This document shows, piece by piece, positions 13,975-21,326 of a stretch of 21,326 bases of DNA (positions within the stretch are counted from its first letter, which is position 1; every line of letters begins with the position of its first letter). The notes beneath the pieces were generated by a model. The model was not told the origin of the DNA, did no database searches, and saw only the letters and a list, made by a program, of their open reading frames with translations. Source of the DNA: a virus; the IMG/VR virus record IMGVR_UViG_3300045996_000416, positions 1 through 21,326 of that record; one strand, given 5' to 3'. The position numbers were made by a program, and so were the translations under genes.

Positions 13975-14451
13975 TTATCGGCGACGCGCCTTCTTCACTG
14001 CGCGATCGATCGCCTTTCTCGTTTCGGTGATAAACACGTTCAGTGCCTCAGACGACTTCTCGGGCACCACCGGACGAAGCCAAGGCTTGGCTGGCACTTG
14101 CTCATTGCCGAACTCGAGCATGCCGCCGTACGCATGCACGGATGCCCCATTCGGGGCACGATCTTTCCGCCTTAGCCTTACCAGCACGCGCTCGTTTGCA
14201 CCGGATCTCTGCGGATTCGGATCTCGGCTGACGATCACGGCCTTCTTAAGCGTGCCGGTAGAGACGCTCGGCCTAGCATCCTTGTTAGGATCCGCGACGA
14301 TCCGATCAATGTTTGCTTGCGCGGCACGCTGGAACACTTGCCCAGCCTTTCGAAGTCCGACGCGGACGGGCCCGCCCTTGACGCTTACGATCTCCTTTGG
14401 AAGCGCCTGGAGCGTCTTCAGGAGTTCGCCGAGACCTTCGACTTCCGCCAT
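13975..14451 (-). CDS. HK97 gp10-like tail completion protein
   Basis: The 158-residue protein begins MAEVEGLGELLKTLQALPKE and shows the HK97-gp10 family pattern: KAGQVFQRAAQANIDRIV (residues 35-52), TGTLKKAVIVSR (65-76), and SVHAYGGMLEFGNEQVPAKP WLRP (104-127), in which the E-F/Y-G-x3-x-P-A-x-P/PW-L-R-P motif is diagnostic. Such proteins act at the head-tail or tail-terminator interface. It is the last gene before the tandem terminators. In many relatives it precedes the DUF3168 gene; here DUF3168 and an extra gene come first. The ribosome-binding site is weak. Confidence 0.9.
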   Translation of the reverse strand: MAEVEGLGELLKTLQALPKEIVSVKGGPVRVGLRKAGQVFQRAAQANIDRIVADPNKDARPSVSTGTLKKAVIVSRDPNPQRSGANERVLVRLRRKDRAPNGASVHAYGGMLEFGNEQVPAKPWLRPVVPEKSSEALNVFITETRKAIDRAVKKARRR

Positions 14452-14591
14452 CGCTTTTCTACCTGTTCCAAACGCCGGCGCAGTTTCTCCGGCAACAACC
14501 TACGGGCGGCCGAGCACGGCTTGCACAGCGTTACAGCACGTCCGCGAGGCTTGCCGTTTTGAAGCACGTGAGTGCGCTCCCAGGAGAACAA
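14418..14591 (-). CDS. Candidate small overlapping gene, 57 residues
   Basis: This open frame starts at TTG 14591 with GGAAG 7 nt upstream (alternative GTG at 14567 with GGGAG 9 nt upstream). It bridges the 79-nt gap between the 'norphogenetic'-type gene and the gp10-like gene, overlapping both ends in other frames. The product is basic: it reads MFSWERTHVLQNGKPRGRAV, then TLCKPC and a helical, Arg-rich segment (AARRLLPEKLRRRLEQVEKR). The single C-x2-C could be half of a metal site. Tight packing elsewhere makes an unused 79 nt unlikely, but no homologue is known to me and the start is non-standard. Treat as tentative. Confidence 0.35.
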   Translation of the reverse strand: MFSWERTHVLQNGKPRGRAVTLCKPCSAARRLLPEKLRRRLEQVEKRWRKSKVSANS

Positions 14592-15055
14592 TTGATGACT
14601 TCCACATCCGACTTCCAGCGCTGGAACTGCCGCAGCATCCGATGAAAGTCGGCGGACGTTGAGTTCTTCAGTGCGGGTGGATGCTTCCCGAAGTAGTGCG
14701 TCCCCTTCATGTCCATACCCAACAGAATGATCCGCGTCGCACCGAGCGTCAGCGCAACGCGCATTCCTTGCAGGCCGCTATTTGAACCAGCCGGGAACAT
14801 CGACTCGGGCTTCAGCCTCTCAGTCCCCTTGAGTTCGCCGCCACAGAACTTGCGTCCTGCAAACTGCAAAGCTTGCGGATGCTGCTTCCACCACTTAACG
14901 TCGTTGCTCACCATCACGTCGGCCCAAGGCGTGAGCTGGTAGGCGTTCGACACCGCTACGGCCTTGCAACGCTGCTCCTCGTGCGCCTGCCTTACGCGAT
15001 CGACCTGCTCGTGCGACAGGCTCTGGCCGGTCGCTAGCACAACGAACGTTGTCAT
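14531..15055 (-). CDS. 'Norphogenetic'-type phage protein, copy 2
   Basis: The 174-residue protein starts MTTFVVLATGQSLSHEQVDR, a Rossmann-like first strand and glycine turn. It contains PWADVMVSNDVKWWKQHP (44-61), NSGLQGMRVALTLGATRIIL (92-111), GMDMKGTHYFGKH (113-125) and VINCSPGSALTCF. Phage proteins with this pattern lie among head-tail genes and carry the odd database label 'norphogenetic protein'; their fold appears related to DUF115-type nucleotide/sugar-binding proteins (from memory, unverified). It is clearly paralogous to the protein at 18494-19021. The ATG overlaps the DUF3168 stop as ATGA. No activity can be assigned; small-molecule or nucleotide-sugar binding is the most reasonable guess. 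Confidence 0.78.
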   Translation of the reverse strand: MTTFVVLATGQSLSHEQVDRVRQAHEEQRCKAVAVSNAYQLTPWADVMVSNDVKWWKQHPQALQFAGRKFCGGELKGTERLKPESMFPAGSNSGLQGMRVALTLGATRIILLGMDMKGTHYFGKHPPALKNSTSADFHRMLRQFQRWKSDVEVINCSPGSALTCFKTASLADVL

Positions 15056-15420
15056 CGAGACGTGATGAACTCGAAGTCAAGCATATAGCCGTAGTTGCGG
15101 GTGATCGGATCACGCGGACGCTGAGCAGCGTTGATCATGTGCGCATGCGGCTCGATCGCATTTCTGATGGCGAGGGCCGCCGCGTCCGCGCTTGCCTGGG
15201 TAATGCCATACACGTCAATCTGGATGCGTGCATCGTCAGCGTCCGGCACTTGGCCGAGATAGTTCGCTGGCGTACTGAACGGCATCTGCCATACCGCATA
15301 GACCGGAGGCTTGTCCTGTGGCGCTTCGCCAAAAGGATAGAAGCGCATGTTCGGCGGACTGCCGAGCTGTGCTCGGCACGCGCTCGAAGCAGCGACGATT
15401 ACGAACACTGCTGGTGTCAT
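15052..15420 (-). CDS. DUF3168 tail terminator / tail completion protein
   Basis: The 122-residue product shows DUF3168 features: a helical start (MTPAVFVIVAASSACRAQLG), PPVYAVWQMPFSTPANYLGQ (37-56), the strand ARIQIDVYG (64-72) followed by an alpha segment (ASADAAALAIRNAIE), and a C-terminal strand (GYMLDFEFITS). The family caps the tail tube at the head-proximal end and joins it to the connector. It starts 5 nt after the nuclease gene stop with only a poor ribosome-binding site, as if an original coupling to an upstream head-tail gene had been interrupted. Downstream it is coupled to the 'norphogenetic'-type copy 2. Confidence 0.88.
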   Translation of the reverse strand: MTPAVFVIVAASSACRAQLGSPPNMRFYPFGEAPQDKPPVYAVWQMPFSTPANYLGQVPDADDARIQIDVYGITQASADAAALAIRNAIEPHAHMINAAQRPRDPITRNYGYMLDFEFITSR

Positions 15421-15425
15421 TGTGG

Positions 15426-15977
15426 TTAGGCCGCCATCCGACTGGTTCCCTGATTGAAGACAAGGCTTCGGGCGATCTCCAAGGACTCATCTAGTCCCCA
15501 GTCGTTCAGCAAACAGTTCACCGCGTACAGAACGACACGGCAATTGGCCTTTGTGTAACCACCGCCAGCCGTGATTCTGTCAACGCTTGGGGTCCGGCTA
15601 TTTCTTCGCCTGTTCTCTATCGAGAAATCAAATTGCAGTCCGGTAAGTTCACATTTGCCGCGCTTCAACTTCTCCGAGAGCCAACCTGCGTCTAGGTCGA
15701 AGTCCACACCTTCTCTCTTGCTCCTTTTCTTTATCGAGCAAACGAGTCTTGACGCTCTCCAATGAAGGTCGTTCTCGTAACGATCCCGTTGCTTCTGAAT
15801 CAGTGACGGACTTTCTCTGCGCTCCTTCTCATTAGACGCATGACACTTCTTGCACCAACCCGCCAGTTTCAAGCGCAAGCGAGATTTCTTTCTGCCTGGG
15901 GAAAACTGCTCATATGGCAAGTGCTGGTCGCACTTAGGGCAATACTTCAACTCTCTGCTCTCAATAGTAGAAGTCAT
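15426..15977 (-). CDS. HNH-type endonuclease with N-terminal zinc ribbon
   Basis: From ATG 15977 the product has 183 residues (a GTG at 16004 would add 9). The N-terminus has a zinc ribbon, Cys13-x2-Cys16 (YCPKC) and Cys42-x2-Cys45 (WCKKC), as in many phage HNH proteins. The nuclease core near residues 107-160 contains GKCELTGLQFDF, TPSVDRITAGGGYTKANCRV and VLYAVNCLLNDWG. This is the HNH-related subfamily in which D-R-I replaces the first H-H. It overlaps the glycosyltransferase stop by 17 nt. It looks AT-richer than its neighbours by eye and is probably a free-standing homing endonuclease. A role in DNA packaging is less likely this far from the terminase. Confidence 0.82.
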   Translation of the reverse strand: MTSTIESRELKYCPKCDQHLPYEQFSPGRKKSRLRLKLAGWCKKCHASNEKERRESPSLIQKQRDRYENDLHWRASRLVCSIKKRSKREGVDFDLDAGWLSEKLKRGKCELTGLQFDFSIENRRRNSRTPSVDRITAGGGYTKANCRVVLYAVNCLLNDWGLDESLEIARSLVFNQGTSRMAA

Positions 15978-16680
15978 GTATCCATGGGGAGGCTTGTAAC
16001 GCACTATAACACCAAGGATCAGGTTTGCCGTGAAACATCACGACGCGAGCGCCCTTGGGAAGCTTGCTCTGGTACTGCTTCACGCAGTGGTCTCGATACG
16101 AATAGACGCCATGTTTCGGGCCCCAGCCCGCGAGCTTCTTACGCATGACGTAGTAGAGCCACGATTGATCGCTGCCCTTCATGCGGCCATCTTGGGTCGC
16201 GAGCCGCGGCGACTTCACCGGATCAAAGGTGTCCCATATCTCGGTGTGCGCGCCCGCGGTGGCCATGATCATCGACGCACAGTGCGTGATCATTGGATTG
16301 CCGGTCTCCCACATCAAAAATGGCTCTTCGCGATGGAAGATCGGCGTCAGATCATCGGTAATCACAACGTCAAGGTCCATCAGCACCATTCGCGTGCCCG
16401 GCCCGATCAACTGCGCGAACCAATCCGAATGAACCTTCAACCGCCGGTAACAGCTCGGACCCGTCGGCCACGAAGGATTAGGGATCGCTGCATAGTCGTC
16501 CCACAGCGGGATGTGTTCGACCTCGGGATCCAGCCCGGTCGCATCGTCCGTTACGCAGATGAAGCGGAACGGATGCGGATAGTGACGAGCCACCATGCGC
16601 CGAAGCGTGTTGACATGGACCGGTAGGAACGTGCTGCGGTAGCCAGGCTTCGACCACTTGAAGGTTATGACGGCGATCAT
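15961..16680 (-). CDS. GT-A type glycosyltransferase-like protein with DxD motif
   Basis: The ATG at 16680 overlaps the glycerophosphodiesterase stop as ATGA and is preferred over the upstream in-frame start at 16794. The 239-residue protein opens MIAVITFKWSKPGYRSTFLP, has FRFICVTDDATGLDPEVEHI (38-57) and RMVLMDLDVVITDDLTPIF (97-115). Asp102-x-Asp104 is the metal/nucleotide-sugar DxD of GT-A enzymes, most like GT8-type folds. SDQSWLYYVM in the second half and the terminal FHGKPDPWCYSALQASPW with its histidine also fit GT8-like enzymes. It would transfer a sugar from a nucleotide-sugar donor. The acceptor is unknown: virion protein, host envelope glycan or a small molecule. No membrane segment is present. 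Confidence 0.8.
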   Translation of the reverse strand: MIAVITFKWSKPGYRSTFLPVHVNTLRRMVARHYPHPFRFICVTDDATGLDPEVEHIPLWDDYAAIPNPSWPTGPSCYRRLKVHSDWFAQLIGPGTRMVLMDLDVVITDDLTPIFHREEPFLMWETGNPMITHCASMIMATAGAHTEIWDTFDPVKSPRLATQDGRMKGSDQSWLYYVMRKKLAGWGPKHGVYSYRDHCVKQYQSKLPKGARVVMFHGKPDPWCYSALQASPWIHDFYY

Positions 16681-17324
16681 TGCATCAACTGCCGGACACG
16701 CATCGTTTCCAGCAGGTGCACTCCGTACCCCATCAGGCGCGCCGCCATGGTCCTGTCGGCGACTTCGTATGAGACCCAGAGGAATCCGGGCCACACGGGG
16801 CCCGTGACGTGCCTCTGGTCTATAAACACGTACTCAGGTTTGTGCACATCACAGTGCGCTCGGCTCGCTGGGCTCATGTCGGGTAGGACGAAGCCAATCC
16901 GGAAGCCTTTGGCTCGAGCAAGCAACGCCGCGTCCTGATCGAATGAGATAATCACGCACTGATCGGCCGGGCAGATTTCACAAACACGATCCACCACGGT
17001 GCGCGCGCCGAACTTGGTCACGCCGTCCCGCTTGATCTCGACGAACGCCGTCGCCTCCCCCAGCACTGCAATCCCTTCCGCCAAGGTCTCGACACCAAGT
17101 GCCTTCAACCCTTGTGCGCTCGTATCGAACGAATCCCGGTCCTTGCCGTACATCCGGAGCAAACAAGCGTCGTGCATAAGCACCGGAACCATATCGCTCG
17201 ACATCTGCACGTCGAACTCGACGAACCGAGCGCCGAGCTCAACGGCTGAGCGGATAGCGGCGACTGAGTTCTCTCTATGCTCCATGGCATTGCCGCGGTG
17301 AGCGACGATTCGGTCTCTCAGCAC
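16677..17324 (-). CDS. Glycerophosphodiester phosphodiesterase-like enzyme (GDPD)
   Basis: From GTG 17324, which overlaps the previous stop as GTGCTGA, the product has 215 residues. An ATG at 17357 is an alternative start. The GDPD TIM-barrel signature is intact: RIVAHRGNAMEHRENS (catalytic His9, Arg10), FVEFDVQ (Glu36, Asp38) and PVLMHD (second catalytic His51), then AFVEIKRDG and CVIISFDQDAALLARA. The enzyme class hydrolyses glycerophosphodiesters to glycerol-3-phosphate and an alcohol. No signal peptide is present, so it should act in the cytoplasm. It is coupled to a glycosyltransferase downstream and to a membrane protein upstream. A substrate such as phospholipid head groups or glycerophosphate-decorated glycan is inference. 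Confidence 0.87.
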   Translation of the reverse strand: MLRDRIVAHRGNAMEHRENSVAAIRSAVELGARFVEFDVQMSSDMVPVLMHDACLLRMYGKDRDSFDTSAQGLKALGVETLAEGIAVLGEATAFVEIKRDGVTKFGARTVVDRVCEICPADQCVIISFDQDAALLARAKGFRIGFVLPDMSPASRAHCDVHKPEYVFIDQRHVTGPVWPGFLWVSYEVADRTMAARLMGYGVHLLETMRVRQLMQ

Positions 17325-17638
17325 GGGTAGAGAACTTCGCGCGCACGGTGCTCGCATCGATAGACTTCGACGCAGTGATTCGGCTCCCAGAAGTAAATCC
17401 GGTCTGCCAGCGCGCCCATCAGTAGGCCAGCGATCCGCTTCCATCCACGCTCCGTCGAAATCCAGCGGCCCAGCAGCCCTGAAATGGTTTCGCGAGGCAA
17501 TGCCCATGGAAGAAACGCGATGGCGCAAAGAGCCATGTTGATCACTATGTATAAGACAAAAACGCGCGCAAGGAACCGACTCCACAGCGGGCGACGTGCC
17601 GCGATTTGATCGGCGACTGCTAGTGCTTCTTCTGCCAC
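17318..17638 (-). CDS. Small membrane protein of the enzyme island
   Basis: Starting at GTG 17638 the product has 106 residues. It has a helical N-terminus (MAEEALAVADQIAARRPLWS), one clear transmembrane segment at about residues 27-48 (VFVLYIVINMALCAIAFLPW), a possible amphipathic or re-entrant segment at 70-80 (IAGLLMGALAD), and a Cys/His-containing C-terminus (FWEPNHCVEVYRCEHR). The two cysteines and nearby histidines could bind a metal, which is speculative. It overlaps the ATP-grasp gene by 19 nt upstream and the GDPD gene by 7 nt downstream. It may tether the enzymes encoded beside it to the membrane. I do not recognise a named family. Confidence 0.7.
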   Translation of the reverse strand: MAEEALAVADQIAARRPLWSRFLARVFVLYIVINMALCAIAFLPWALPRETISGLLGRWISTERGWKRIAGLLMGALADRIYFWEPNHCVEVYRCEHRAREVLYPC

Positions 17639-18513
17639 GTTCCAGCCTCAAGTTCGTCCATCATCAGATCAAACATTTCTATCCAGCGCCGCTTTGTCCC
17701 GAAGAATGGCGCTTCGTTACATTTGCCCGGAGACGGCCAGGGCCATGCCAAGCTTGTTTCGAGCAATCGCCACGAATCACCGTCCTGCAGAACATCGATC
17801 GCACACCAATTCGTGCCAGCGACCTCAAGAAACTTATTGGAAAAGTCCAGTAGCGACTCAACCTGCGGCGTCACAGTCGTCACCGGCTCGACATTGCCGG
17901 TCTGAGCAACGGAGCGATCCGGGTAGCAATACCGTCGGAAGGCCGCTCGCTTCGTTCCAACTGCGTTCACTCGCCACGTCACCATGTGGGGAATGAACTT
18001 TTGCAGCAGCGCGTACCCCTTCTGCATCGATCGCGCTTTGCCAGAGCAGTGATTGACCTCAACGCCAGCGCCAAATAGTGACGCCACGTGAGCGATCGCT
18101 TGGTATTTGTCCCGCAGGATACGGACGTTCACCGAGCTCGCTCCGACATCCGCTTTGGACACCACCGGATATGGAGCCGATGACTCACAAAAAGCGAGCG
18201 CCTCGTCGCGATCAGTGAATCGCCAAGTCGGAGGCATCCATTCGGACCACCGTTCGAACTGTGCGCTCTTGTTTTCGTACAGCCTGACCTGCGCTTCGTC
18301 CTGAATCATCGTCAGGCGAGCAGCCATCAGGTCGTAGTCGCGCTGATTTTTCTTCAACTCGGCGGGATCGGCATGCGGTCGGATGAAGCCGACGCCGTCA
18401 GAATCAGCTTCCTCGCCGCGGAAGATTCGCTTTGGCGAGTAACCGCGGGCCTTTGCCGATTTGATGATGGCCGCATGCCATACATCTCTTGTGTCAAGAA
18501 CGTAGAACTTCAC
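17620..18513 (-). CDS. ATP-grasp superfamily ligase-like protein
   Basis: The 297-residue product (GTG start at 18513) has ATP-grasp order: an N-terminal Rossmann-like part (MKFYVLDTRDVWHAAIIKSA), then the ATP-binding lysine strand and glycine-rich loop YPVVSKADVGASSVNVRIL (residues 115-133; Lys120), QKFIPHMVTWRVNAVG (171-186), and the metal-binding end with Asp240 (NWCAIDVLQDG) and Glu252 (WRLLETSLAWPWPSPGK). ATP-grasp ligases join a carboxylate to an amine or thiol through an acyl-phosphate. The usual E-x-N of the last strand reads E-T-S here, so either a lineage-specific variant or reduced metal binding is possible. It overlaps its upstream neighbour by 20 nt. Confidence 0.8.
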   Translation of the reverse strand: MKFYVLDTRDVWHAAIIKSAKARGYSPKRIFRGEEADSDGVGFIRPHADPAELKKNQRDYDLMAARLTMIQDEAQVRLYENKSAQFERWSEWMPPTWRFTDRDEALAFCESSAPYPVVSKADVGASSVNVRILRDKYQAIAHVASLFGAGVEVNHCSGKARSMQKGYALLQKFIPHMVTWRVNAVGTKRAAFRRYCYPDRSVAQTGNVEPVTTVTPQVESLLDFSNKFLEVAGTNWCAIDVLQDGDSWRLLETSLAWPWPSPGKCNEAPFFGTKRRWIEMFDLMMDELEAGTWQKKH

Positions 18514-19021
18514 TCAAATCGCCCATTGGAAACCGTTTCAGCGCCGATCCCGGCGTGCAGTTGATGACTTCACCGAATCGCCAGCCATCGAACTGCCTCA
18601 GGAGCTTCAGATACCGCTCCGGCGTGGTGTTCTTCAGCGGCTCCGGGTGCGGGCCAAAGTAGTGAGTGCCGTGCATATCGAAGCCGACCAGCAGTATCCG
18701 GCTCGCGCGGAACACATCTCTCGCCACGCGCATTCCTTGCAGGCCGCTGTTCAGTCCAGAATTGAACTCGCCAGTCTGCTCCAATCGCTCAACACCGGGA
18801 TAAGGCACACCGCAGAATCTGCGACCCTGGAACTTCGACGCGTCCAGGTTGTTTTCCCACCAGTTTCTGTCGTTGCTCACGAGCGCATCGGCCCATGGCG
18901 CGAGCTTGTACATGTCGGAGATCGCGATCGCTCCGCACTTCCCTGCTGCATGCAATTCACGAACGTACTCCACCTGATCAGCCGTGACGGACTGACCGGT
19001 GGCGAGCACTACGAAATCCAA
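18494..19021 (-). CDS. 'Norphogenetic'-type phage protein, copy 1
   Basis: The frame starts at TTG 19021, immediately after the head-tail adaptor stop (TGATTG), with GGGAG 5 nt upstream, giving 175 residues. It shares with copy 2 the blocks FVVLATGQS, PWADALVSNDRNWWENN, NSGLNSGLQGMRVARDV, ILLVGFDMHGTHYFGPHP, LLRQFDGW and VINCTPGSAL, so the two are full-length paralogues. The conserved glycine turn after the first strand suggests a nucleotide- or sugar-nucleotide-binding fold. It opens the accessory enzyme island, overlapping the ATP-grasp gene by 20 nt. No activity can be assigned from sequence alone. Confidence 0.78.
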   Translation of the reverse strand: MDFVVLATGQSVTADQVEYVRELHAAGKCGAIAISDMYKLAPWADALVSNDRNWWENNLDASKFQGRRFCGVPYPGVERLEQTGEFNSGLNSGLQGMRVARDVFRASRILLVGFDMHGTHYFGPHPEPLKNTTPERYLKLLRQFDGWRFGEVINCTPGSALKRFPMGDLSEVLRS

Positions 19022-19372
19022 TCAATCTCCCGAATTTGTGCCTTCGCTACACGGGGCGGTCACATATTCGAGTCCGCTGTCGGGGTCGGCCAGCCACCCC
19101 GCCGGGTTGTATATCTTCCCCGTGCTCGGATGAAGGATGCGCATCTGCGGCGTCAGGCCACCGCGATATCGGATCGTGATGCGCGCTGTGATCTGGCTCT
19201 GCATCTGACTCGACGCAATGAACTCGCGAACGCTCAGCGGCTCTATCGCAGCCGCGACCTCAGTGGCGAAATCGACCCAAACGGTGCGAACTGCGCCCGT
19301 GTTTGGGTCCTGCGGGTGCCTCGGCTCTTGGATTGTGATCTTGTGCCGAAGCCGGCCGGCAGACAGGCTCAC
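19022..19372 (-). CDS. Head-tail adaptor (phage head-tail joining family)
   Basis: The 116-residue product starts at GTG 19372 (GTGA overlap with the preceding stop) and reads MSLSAGRLRHKITIQEPRHP. This is the start typical of head-tail adaptors of the SPP1 gp16 / HK97 gp7 type: G-x-L-R-H-R/K-I-x-I-Q. A strand pattern follows (VWVDFATEVAAAIEPLSVRE FIAS, then QITARITIRYRGGLTPQMRI) and the closing ILHPSTGKIYNPAGWLAD. The protein forms a ring between connector and tail terminator. The gene that would normally follow it (gp10-like or DUF3168) is displaced by the 3.6-kb enzyme island. Confidence 0.9.
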   Translation of the reverse strand: MSLSAGRLRHKITIQEPRHPQDPNTGAVRTVWVDFATEVAAAIEPLSVREFIASSQMQSQITARITIRYRGGLTPQMRILHPSTGKIYNPAGWLADPDSGLEYVTAPCSEGTNSGD

Positions 19373-19572: not shown

Positions 19573-19937
19573 GCTAAGGCTGGACTTCTCAATGGATATA
19601 GAATTGCAGTCACTGGCATCGGCAGATAGCCACGCTCAAAGATGGGCCTGAATGATCCTTCGCCGCCCTCGTCACGATTGCGCCACAGGTAGCCAACCAG
19701 CATTTTCGTGGCGTGCTGAACCTCGGGTCTGACGGTGGTTGTGTAGACCGGATCGTCGTTACTATCGACGACGGGATCACCTGCACTGTCGAGTTCCGGA
19801 ACGTACGGAGACGCGCTCTTGAGGTAGTTCACGATCATCGCCGAAGCGGCATCGACGACTTCCTGCAACTCGTCCTCGTCAACCTCGCTGCCACCGCGGA
19901 TCTGCAGCAGCGCTTGGTCAGTCGTGATGAGCGCCAT
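19569..19937 (-). CDS. Head-tail connector (HK97 gp6-like)
   Basis: The 122-residue protein begins MALITTDQALLQIRGGSEVD, followed by DEDELQEVVDAASAMIVNYL and PEVQHATKMLVGYLWRNRDE, the all-helical pattern of the gp6-like connector family, and ends in a Pro-rich segment (GYLPMPVTAILYPLRSPALA). It forms the ring attached to the portal. A central insertion (ELDSAGDPVVDSNDDPVYTT) is also seen in many relatives. The ATG at 19937 overlaps the stop of the upstream repeat protein as TGATG. Confidence 0.9.
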   Translation of the reverse strand: MALITTDQALLQIRGGSEVDEDELQEVVDAASAMIVNYLKSASPYVPELDSAGDPVVDSNDDPVYTTTVRPEVQHATKMLVGYLWRNRDEGGEGSFRPIFERGYLPMPVTAILYPLRSPALA

Positions 19938-20872
19938 CAGGATCCCTTCCCATCACGACCTTTTTTCACTGCAAGTCTCCAGTCAGGCGACTGCCCAGGC
20001 TTGCCACTCGGCGCGTCCTTCTGCGCGATCCAGTAACTACCGTCAGCCGTCACCGCATCACCGCGCTCGTATGTGCGATCGGCTTTGTACACGCCGCGCT
20101 CGAGCACGACGGGAACCGTGAACGTGAACTCTTTACGCTGCTCGCCGCGTTCGAAGATGAAAGAAAATGAGCGCTCGCCATCGTGTTCCACGCGAAGATC
20201 GTCGAAGCCCAAGCCGTCCTTACCGTCGTCGCCATCTTCACCGTCTTGAGGCTTATCGAAGGACGCCAGCAGGCGTGTATGTATGTCCTGTGCGCGCCGC
20301 TCGAAATCGAGGGCCCACTTATCGAATGCCTGGTGGAACAGCGGCAACACTTCATCCAGCGTGACCGACTTGCCGTCCTTCGGCAGCGGCAGTGCATCGA
20401 TCCAGGTTTTGACTGTCGGCAGCAACTCTTCCAGGGTAACGGACTTTCCGTCGTCCCCATTCTTCGGGCGAGGCAGTTCAGCCACAGCCTTGCGGGCCAC
20501 TTCGGCGGCCTTAGCCTCAAGCGATGGAATCAGAATCGGCAGGAGCTCGTCAGCCGTGACGCTTTTGCCGTCCTTCGCCTTCGGAATCGATTCGACGGCT
20601 TTGCCAACCATCTCGGTAACGACGGGGATCACCTCGTCAACCGTGACGCTCTTTCCGTCTTTAGGTGCTGGGATCTTTGCAACCGCATCCGCGACCGCCA
20701 GTTCAATGAGGGGCGCCACCTCCTCGACCGTTACCGACTTTCCCGGATCGCCCTTCTCTGGCTGGCGCTGCTCGAGCGCTGCCACTCGCTCAAGAATCGG
20801 CTGTATAGCCTTACCGCAGTATTCTTTGACAGCGGCCGCAACTGACTTGGCCCATTCAACCGGGTCGTTCAT
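19937..20872 (-). CDS. Repeat-containing structural protein with C-terminal carbohydrate-binding-like module
   Basis: The ATG at 20872 overlaps the portal stop as ATGA and is preferred over an upstream in-frame start at 20920. The 311-residue product begins MNDPVEWAKSVAAAVKEYCG and then has five imperfect repeats of 25-40 residues built on (P)GKSVTVEEVAPLI, DGKSVTVDEVIPVV, DGKSVTADELLPIL, DGKSVTLEELLPTV and DGKSVTLDEVLPLF, separated by helical segments. A short Gly/Asp-rich stretch (DGEDGDDGKDG) leads to a beta-rich part and a C-terminal module, VYKADRTYERGDAVTADGSY WIAQKDAPSGKPG, resembling CBM5/12-type domains of phage proteins. It may be a head decoration or a virion-surface binding protein. 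The function is inferred. Confidence 0.75.
   Translation of the reverse strand: MNDPVEWAKSVAAAVKEYCGKAIQPILERVAALEQRQPEKGDPGKSVTVEEVAPLIELAVADAVAKIPAPKDGKSVTVDEVIPVVTEMVGKAVESIPKAKDGKSVTADELLPILIPSLEAKAAEVARKAVAELPRPKNGDDGKSVTLEELLPTVKTWIDALPLPKDGKSVTLDEVLPLFHQAFDKWALDFERRAQDIHTRLLASFDKPQDGEDGDDGKDGLGFDDLRVEHDGERSFSFIFERGEQRKEFTFTVPVVLERGVYKADRTYERGDAVTADGSYWIAQKDAPSGKPGQSPDWRLAVKKGRDGKGS
20361..20750 (-). repeat. Five degenerate DNA repeats encoding the GKSVT motif
   Basis: Copies of a sequence close to GTGACCGACTTGCCGTCCTT (plus-strand view) begin near 20361, 20434, 20556, 20643 and 20731. They lie in the same frame of the repeat-containing structural protein and encode DGKSVT or GKSVT. 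Spacing varies (73, 122, 87 and 88 nt), so copy number or linker length may have changed by recombination. Confidence 0.75.
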
Positions 20873-21326
20873 GCGGCTCGTAGCTCCAGTGACAGGGCGT
20901 CCAGCGCCTTCCGATTCCACTCTGCGCGGCGTTGTTCGGAATCTTCCGGAGCAACATCTGGCACGGGCGCAGGTTTAGGCGCGTCTGACTTCCCAAACGG
21001 ATCATCTCTCGCGTCTCGCTTCGCCAAGGCGGGAAGACTGAAGTTCTGCTGCTGGAGATAGAGAACATCTCCGCCTTCCTGCGGTGCCCAATTCTCCATT
21101 CGACGCGCTTCATTCGGCGCAAGTAACGCGCCGCTGATCGCCTTGATGTGAGAATCCATTCGCGTAGATGGGTCCATGCGCAGCAACACTCCTTCATCCA
21201 GCCACACCTCGGACGGGTCGGCGACCTCAAGTCCATCCTTCAGGCGTCGCTCGATGTTCTCCACGATCGGCTGCAAAGCCTGGTCGTAATACTGTTGATT
21301 GAGCGCGGCTACGTTGTTGGTGGTCG
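20869..21326 (-). CDS. Portal protein, HK97 family, C-terminal part
   Basis: The frame enters from the right edge (TTNNVAALNQQYYDQALQPI) and covers the last 151 residues or so. It shows the HK97-portal C-terminal pattern: QPIVENIERRLKDGL, LLRMDPSTRMDSHIKAISGA, LLAPNEARRMENWAPQEGGD and LYLQQQNFSLPAL. The portal is the dodecameric channel through which DNA enters and leaves the head. It is followed directly by the repeat protein and the connector, without the protease and capsid genes that usually come next in HK97-like order. Those genes must lie outside this window. Confidence 0.92.
   Translation of the reverse strand, partial: TTNNVAALNQQYYDQALQPIVENIERRLKDGLEVADPSEVWLDEGVLLRMDPSTRMDSHIKAISGALLAPNEARRMENWAPQEGGDVLYLQQQNFSLPALAKRDARDDPFGKSDAPKPAPVPDVAPEDSEQRRAEWNRKALDALSLELRAA

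Follow-up and report, generated by a model that had tools for sequence, protein, structure and literature searches.

A linked cassette of ATP-grasp ligase, membrane protein and glycosyltransferase genes among the head and tail genes of uncultured phages, probably serving chemical decoration of the virus particle or the host envelope

Why would a phage carry a run of enzyme genes between the gene that closes its head and the one that terminates its tail? The question is raised by a 21,326-base record of an uncultured virus (the whole of this stretch is hereafter called the window), in which an earlier note had described a six-gene island between a head-tail adaptor and a tail terminator. The coordinates and gene types were correct: all six open reading frames were verified on the minus strand at 15426-19021, and the Pfam and PHROG matches of the border genes place the head closure protein Hc1 on one side and the tail terminator on the other. 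The minus-strand order is a repeat-rich protein, Ad1, a 67-aa protein, Hc1, PmgO1, the ATP-grasp protein, a small membrane protein (TM), a glycerophosphodiester phosphodiesterase (GDPD), a glycosyltransferase (GT) and an HNH nuclease, followed by the tail terminator, PmgO2, an HK97-gp10-like protein and the major tail protein. The features that matter here are the following.

19022..19372, minus strand: Hc1, head closure or head-tail adaptor protein, upstream border (PF05521, 7e-25; phrog_25)
18494..19021, minus strand: PmgO1, PmgO-family transferase-like protein, MptE/GT42-like Rossmann fold (phrog_4603, 5.7e-23)
17620..18513, minus strand: ATP-grasp ligase, RimK/LysX/ArgX-like fold, family unnamed in Pfam (Foldseek, NCBIfam)
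17318..17638, minus strand: TM, small membrane protein, one predicted helix, VFVLYIVINMALCAIAFLP (hydropathy, alignment)
16677..17321, minus strand: GDPD, glycerophosphodiester phosphodiesterase, CTG start (PF03009, 2.4e-21)
15961..16680, minus strand: GT, GT-A glycosyltransferase, GT8/glycogenin-like, DxD at D102-D104 (phrog_1962 glycosyltransferase, 2.7e-13)
15426..15977, minus strand: HNH/endonuclease VII-type free-standing nuclease, between GT and tail terminator (phrog_3322, 9e-27)
15052..15420, minus strand: gp17-like tail terminator, downstream border (PF11367, 1.4e-11; phrog_78)
14531..15055, minus strand: PmgO2, second PmgO-family copy, downstream of the tail terminator (phrog_4603, 4.7e-33)

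Five of the six island genes are chained by overlaps of 4-20 nt (PmgO1/ATP-grasp, 20 nt; ATP-grasp/TM, 19 nt; TM/GDPD, 4 nt, CTGA; GDPD/GT, 4 nt). The statement that all but the nuclease overlap was right about these five, but the nuclease gene overlaps too, its first ATG at 15977 lying 17 nt inside the 3' end of the GT gene. From the overlaps and the position of the genes we infer that they are expressed together and late in infection; no match to a sigma-70-type promoter was found between 13 and 20 kb of the window. Near the window end, an open reading frame at 414-932 resembles class I chitinases (PF00182, 6e-11) and is perhaps an endolysin.

Identification of the ATP-grasp protein is supported by its fold and by weak matches of its family. 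In a Foldseek search against the PDB, which gave 412 matches at E<=0.001, its model (pLDDT 72) matched RimK, LysX and ArgX (E about 1e-9, probability 1.0). PsnB and MdnC, two ligases that modify peptides, are also among the fold matches. The NCBIfam matches of the 28 family members are weak and mostly to ATP-grasp families. K120, D240, E252 and S254 are invariant in these members, and E252-T-S254, of which E and S never vary, is presumably the metal-binding motif, a placement made by inference rather than by superposition. RimK, LysX and ArgX are the closest solved folds, but the window protein differs from them in that identity is 12-20% in the listed best matches, E-x-S replaces the usual E-x-N, and the protein searched by itself has no Pfam assignment. 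As to the R2K (CDC123-like) clade, no R2K or D123 profile was among the Pfam matches of the 28 members at E<=1. Among 50,697 records of annotated phages, tblastn with the ATP-grasp family found nothing at E 1e-3. A DNA-level search of annotated phages gave one short match, in a Halomonas phage. Two scans of bacterial genome contigs with ATP-grasp alignments confirmed no relative, a pattern-limited result that does not prove absence.

The three proteins encoded next are largely what they had been taken for. Hydropathy shows one predicted helix in TM, the RETxSGLLGRW and HC motifs are conserved in its alignment, and 19 of 20 TM members match phrog_3342, a family of unknown function; in annotated phages tblastn with TM found no match at 1e-2, and a search with its consensus at E<=10 gave weak matches alone. 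GDPD matches the profiles of solved GDPDs at 1e-13 and has its catalytic residues intact (H8, R9, E35, D37, H50, E95 and K97, covering HRG, E-x-D and the catalytic His). Comparison with its homologues puts the apparent start at 17321, a CTG codon within the CTGA at 17318-17321 that overlaps the TM stop; the start is CTG also in the relative L004, and GTG or ATG in other relatives. The DxD glycosyltransferase call agrees with a GT-A profile match (Skp1 galactosyltransferase, 5e-4; glycogenin, 2e-3) and with D102, D104, D171 and Q172, which are invariant across 49 GT sequences, 4 of which singly and weakly matched PF01501.

The first island gene, by contrast with its earlier 'norphogenetic'-type label, belongs to the PmgO family (phrog_4603, named 'alpha-2,3-sialyltransferase'); the phage P1 record uses 'norphogenetic' for PmgP. 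The second copy, PmgO2, which the earlier note did not mention, is 53% identical to PmgO1 and holds the same place in L004, L006 and L007; the phrog_4603 profile spans both copies at full length (residues 7-174 of PmgO1 and 8-174 of PmgO2). The AlphaFold model of PmgO1 has a pLDDT of 92.8. Its nearest PDB fold is M. jannaschii HPPK/MptE (8sd5, probability 0.99), a moderate match with a TM-score of 0.42-0.48, and the fold search returned nothing at E<=0.001. PF01973 (MptE-like) is matched by 26 of 41 family members; its relatives, we assume, include the Maf flagellin glycosyltransferases. No significant profile match to solved GT42 sialyltransferases was found, the CstII type reaching E 0.42. 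Thus the PHROG name is no proof of sialyltransferase activity, and a transferase role for PmgO is suggested by remote similarity.

Do these genes belong together? An earlier linkage count was partly biased in that some loci had been drawn from a GT search, and a count centred on the ATP-grasp gene avoids this. The ATP-grasp-centred search of IMG/VR gave 46 loci, 40 of them distinct, and the 35 with at least 1.2 kb downstream serve as the denominator. TM follows the ATP-grasp gene in 31/35 contigs and GT in 32/35, and every one of the 35 has at least one of the two. The contigs lacking GT (L202, L203 and L205) carry TM and PmgO, and those with no detected TM (L192, L207, L209 and L212) have GT directly downstream of the ATP-grasp gene. 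A search centred on TM found the ATP-grasp gene in 18 of 18 loci. PmgO lies within about 4 kb of the core in 27 of the 35 contigs and GDPD is present in 5, while PmgO and GT occur together without the ATP-grasp gene in 45 further distinct loci. The core is ATP-grasp, TM and GT, its order kept in dozens of uncultured phages, with PmgO as a frequent partner and GDPD as an add-on. Other genes also join the cassette, namely O-methyltransferases in L007 (the same as L083), L064, L085 and L054, and a relative of NAD-epimerase/GDP-mannose dehydratase in L110; such partners are a glycan-building signature. Mantel tests on the distances gave significant correlations for almost every pair of genes and did not set the cassette apart from its neighbours.

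Comparison with L004 points the same way. The stretch from ATP-grasp through TM and GDPD to GT is 91% identical to that of L004 (89-93% for each gene at the DNA level), whereas on either side identity drops to 64% in PmgO1 and 68% in the tail terminator gene (Fisher p 1e-61, with sites taken as independent); PmgO2 and the gp10 gene are again 88-90% identical. The breakpoints lie near the ATP-grasp start and at the GT/tail terminator junction, indicating that two phages have exchanged the four genes as one block. The cassette is under purifying selection: against three relatives dN/dS is 0.04-0.18 and there are no inactivating internal stops. It also occupies several contexts among head genes. 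In the window its neighbours are Hc1 on one side and the tail terminator/gp10 genes on the other; in L063, which has a different layout, it immediately precedes the major head protein gene, and in L103 a third layout has it between the portal and the major tail protein.

The nuclease, whose HNH-type label agrees with its PHROG match, behaves differently. All three aligned relatives that cover the junction have a gap in place of its gene, which is absent there from L004, L006 and L007; in L004 and L006 the GT stop and the tail terminator start are 2 nt apart. It is therefore a lone insert of the free-standing, homing type and no part of the pathway. An insert between ATP-grasp and TM in L073 (1692-2294) looks HNH-like by eye, with one weak Pfam match, and may be a second nuclease insertion in the cassette. 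Independent occurrence or inactivating changes in relatives would have counted against the single pathway proposed for the six genes. By these measures the idea survives for the three core genes, with their fixed order, lack of stops, low dN/dS and share in the block exchange, and for PmgO, but fails for the rarely present GDPD and the inserted HNH gene. As a separate observation, the stretch at 13975-15420 reads tail terminator, PmgO2, gp10 in the clade of the window, but gp10, tail terminator in L009 and L047, and has therefore been rearranged.

Some known phages have part of this arrangement. The pmgO-pmgP-ppp-pmgQ region of P1 likewise encodes, on one strand, a PmgO protein and a nearby glycosyltransferase (PmgQ), but its annotated stretch has a phosphatase and no ATP-grasp gene, and it is not at a siphovirus head-tail junction. 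Both pmgO and pmgQ of P1 are nonessential for lytic growth (PMC10695390), which would fit an accessory role and lends indirect support to the view that the island genes are not needed for morphogenesis. Closer in position are Pseudomonas phage D3, with PmgO and a methyltransferase among its head-tail connector genes, and Tetraselmis viridis virus S20, with PmgO and glycosyltransferases there, one of them 46% identical to GT; they differ from the window in that the ATP-grasp and TM families had no tblastn match in annotated phages at the thresholds given above.

What could such a cassette do? It probably decorates the virus particle or the dying host's envelope chemically. The reading we prefer, to which we give a probability of about 0.4, is that of a late-expressed covalent-modification cassette among the virion assembly genes, acting most likely on a virion protein. 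Its core would be a carboxylate-amine ligase of the ATP-grasp type, a single-pass membrane protein and a GT8-like glycosyltransferase, assisted by PmgO in one or two copies and by optional further genes. GT and PmgO would most likely glycosylate at least one virion protein, the ATP-grasp enzyme would ligate an amino acid or some other carboxylate to that protein or its glycan, and TM would anchor the enzymes or serve as substrate. A narrower version, which we regard as rather doubtful, is a new protein-modification pathway in which the dedicated TM organises the ATP-grasp enzyme and GT, virion proteins receive a glycan carrying amino-acyl or peptidyl groups, and the cassette moves between phages that differ in genome layout. 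There is precedent for such a target in mycobacteriophages, whose capsid and tail tube proteins carry glycans (Freeman et al. 2023, as cited in PMC12619734) added by glycosyltransferases that the phages themselves encode. A speculative acceptor is the repeat-rich protein at 19937-20920, encoded just upstream of the connector genes and carrying five GKSVT copies in spaced repeats. Its top PHROG match is named 'portal protein', a name made doubtful by the repeats. Its C-terminal region is present in 25 of 40 PmgO-centred loci, weak evidence, since its gene is tied by position to that same block.

The location of the cassette among late genes suggests when it acts rather than on what, and, to judge by TM and GDPD, a membrane lipid or the envelope would be no worse a candidate target than a virion protein. 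The host envelope (LPS, a glycolipid or a phospholipid head group) might instead be modified late, for example blocking superinfection or re-adsorption of virions to debris. The conserved TM directly after the ATP-grasp gene in most contigs argues for this, as do the action of GDPD on glycerophosphodiesters and the LPS glycosyltransferases within the GT8 family. We nevertheless consider an envelope target somewhat unlikely: virion genes lie on both sides in every context read, most relatives lack GDPD, and the seroconversion gtr genes (flippase and bactoprenol glucosyltransferase) are absent among the island ORFs.

Another view would be that the genes are unlinked morons with no pathway in common, which occupy one permissive slot bounded by Hc1 and the gp10/tail terminator genes. 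Other phages do use this slot for different enzymes, as L012, L014 and D3 show with their methyltransferases and GT-like genes, but the fixed order, the linkage across layouts and the block exchange are unexpected for unrelated genes, which makes this improbable. The presence of PsnB and MdnC among the fold matches, and of TM directly behind the ligase in most contigs, raises a graspetide-like scheme in which the ATP-grasp enzyme cross-links or tags TM, with its conserved motifs, as the product and GT decorates it. In the alignment, however, TM lacks the Thr/Glu-rich repeated core of graspetides, and the four contigs with a ligase gene and no detected TM do not fit either, so that we hold this scheme to be quite improbable. 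That the cassette hypermodifies DNA with glycosylated or amino-acylated bases, as phage glycosyltransferases are described to do (Pyle et al. 2024, as cited in PMC12619734), is highly unlikely, since ten cassette-bearing records, some of them fragments, contain no thymidylate synthase or hydroxymethylase homologue, a membrane protein would be unexpected and the genes lie among virion genes.

A full-text search of open-licence papers found no description of the set of ligase, membrane protein and glycosyltransferase. In the mycobacteriophage glycosylation system no counterpart of the ATP-grasp enzyme or of the membrane protein is known to us. Thus, while virion glycosylation by phages is known, a ligase-TM-GT unit recurring across head-gene layouts is apparently undescribed. 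If the cassette decorates virions, as we favour, it would bear on host range, on particle stability and on the recognition of phages by hosts or immune systems, and it would offer a testable function for the long-unexplained PmgO family of P1.
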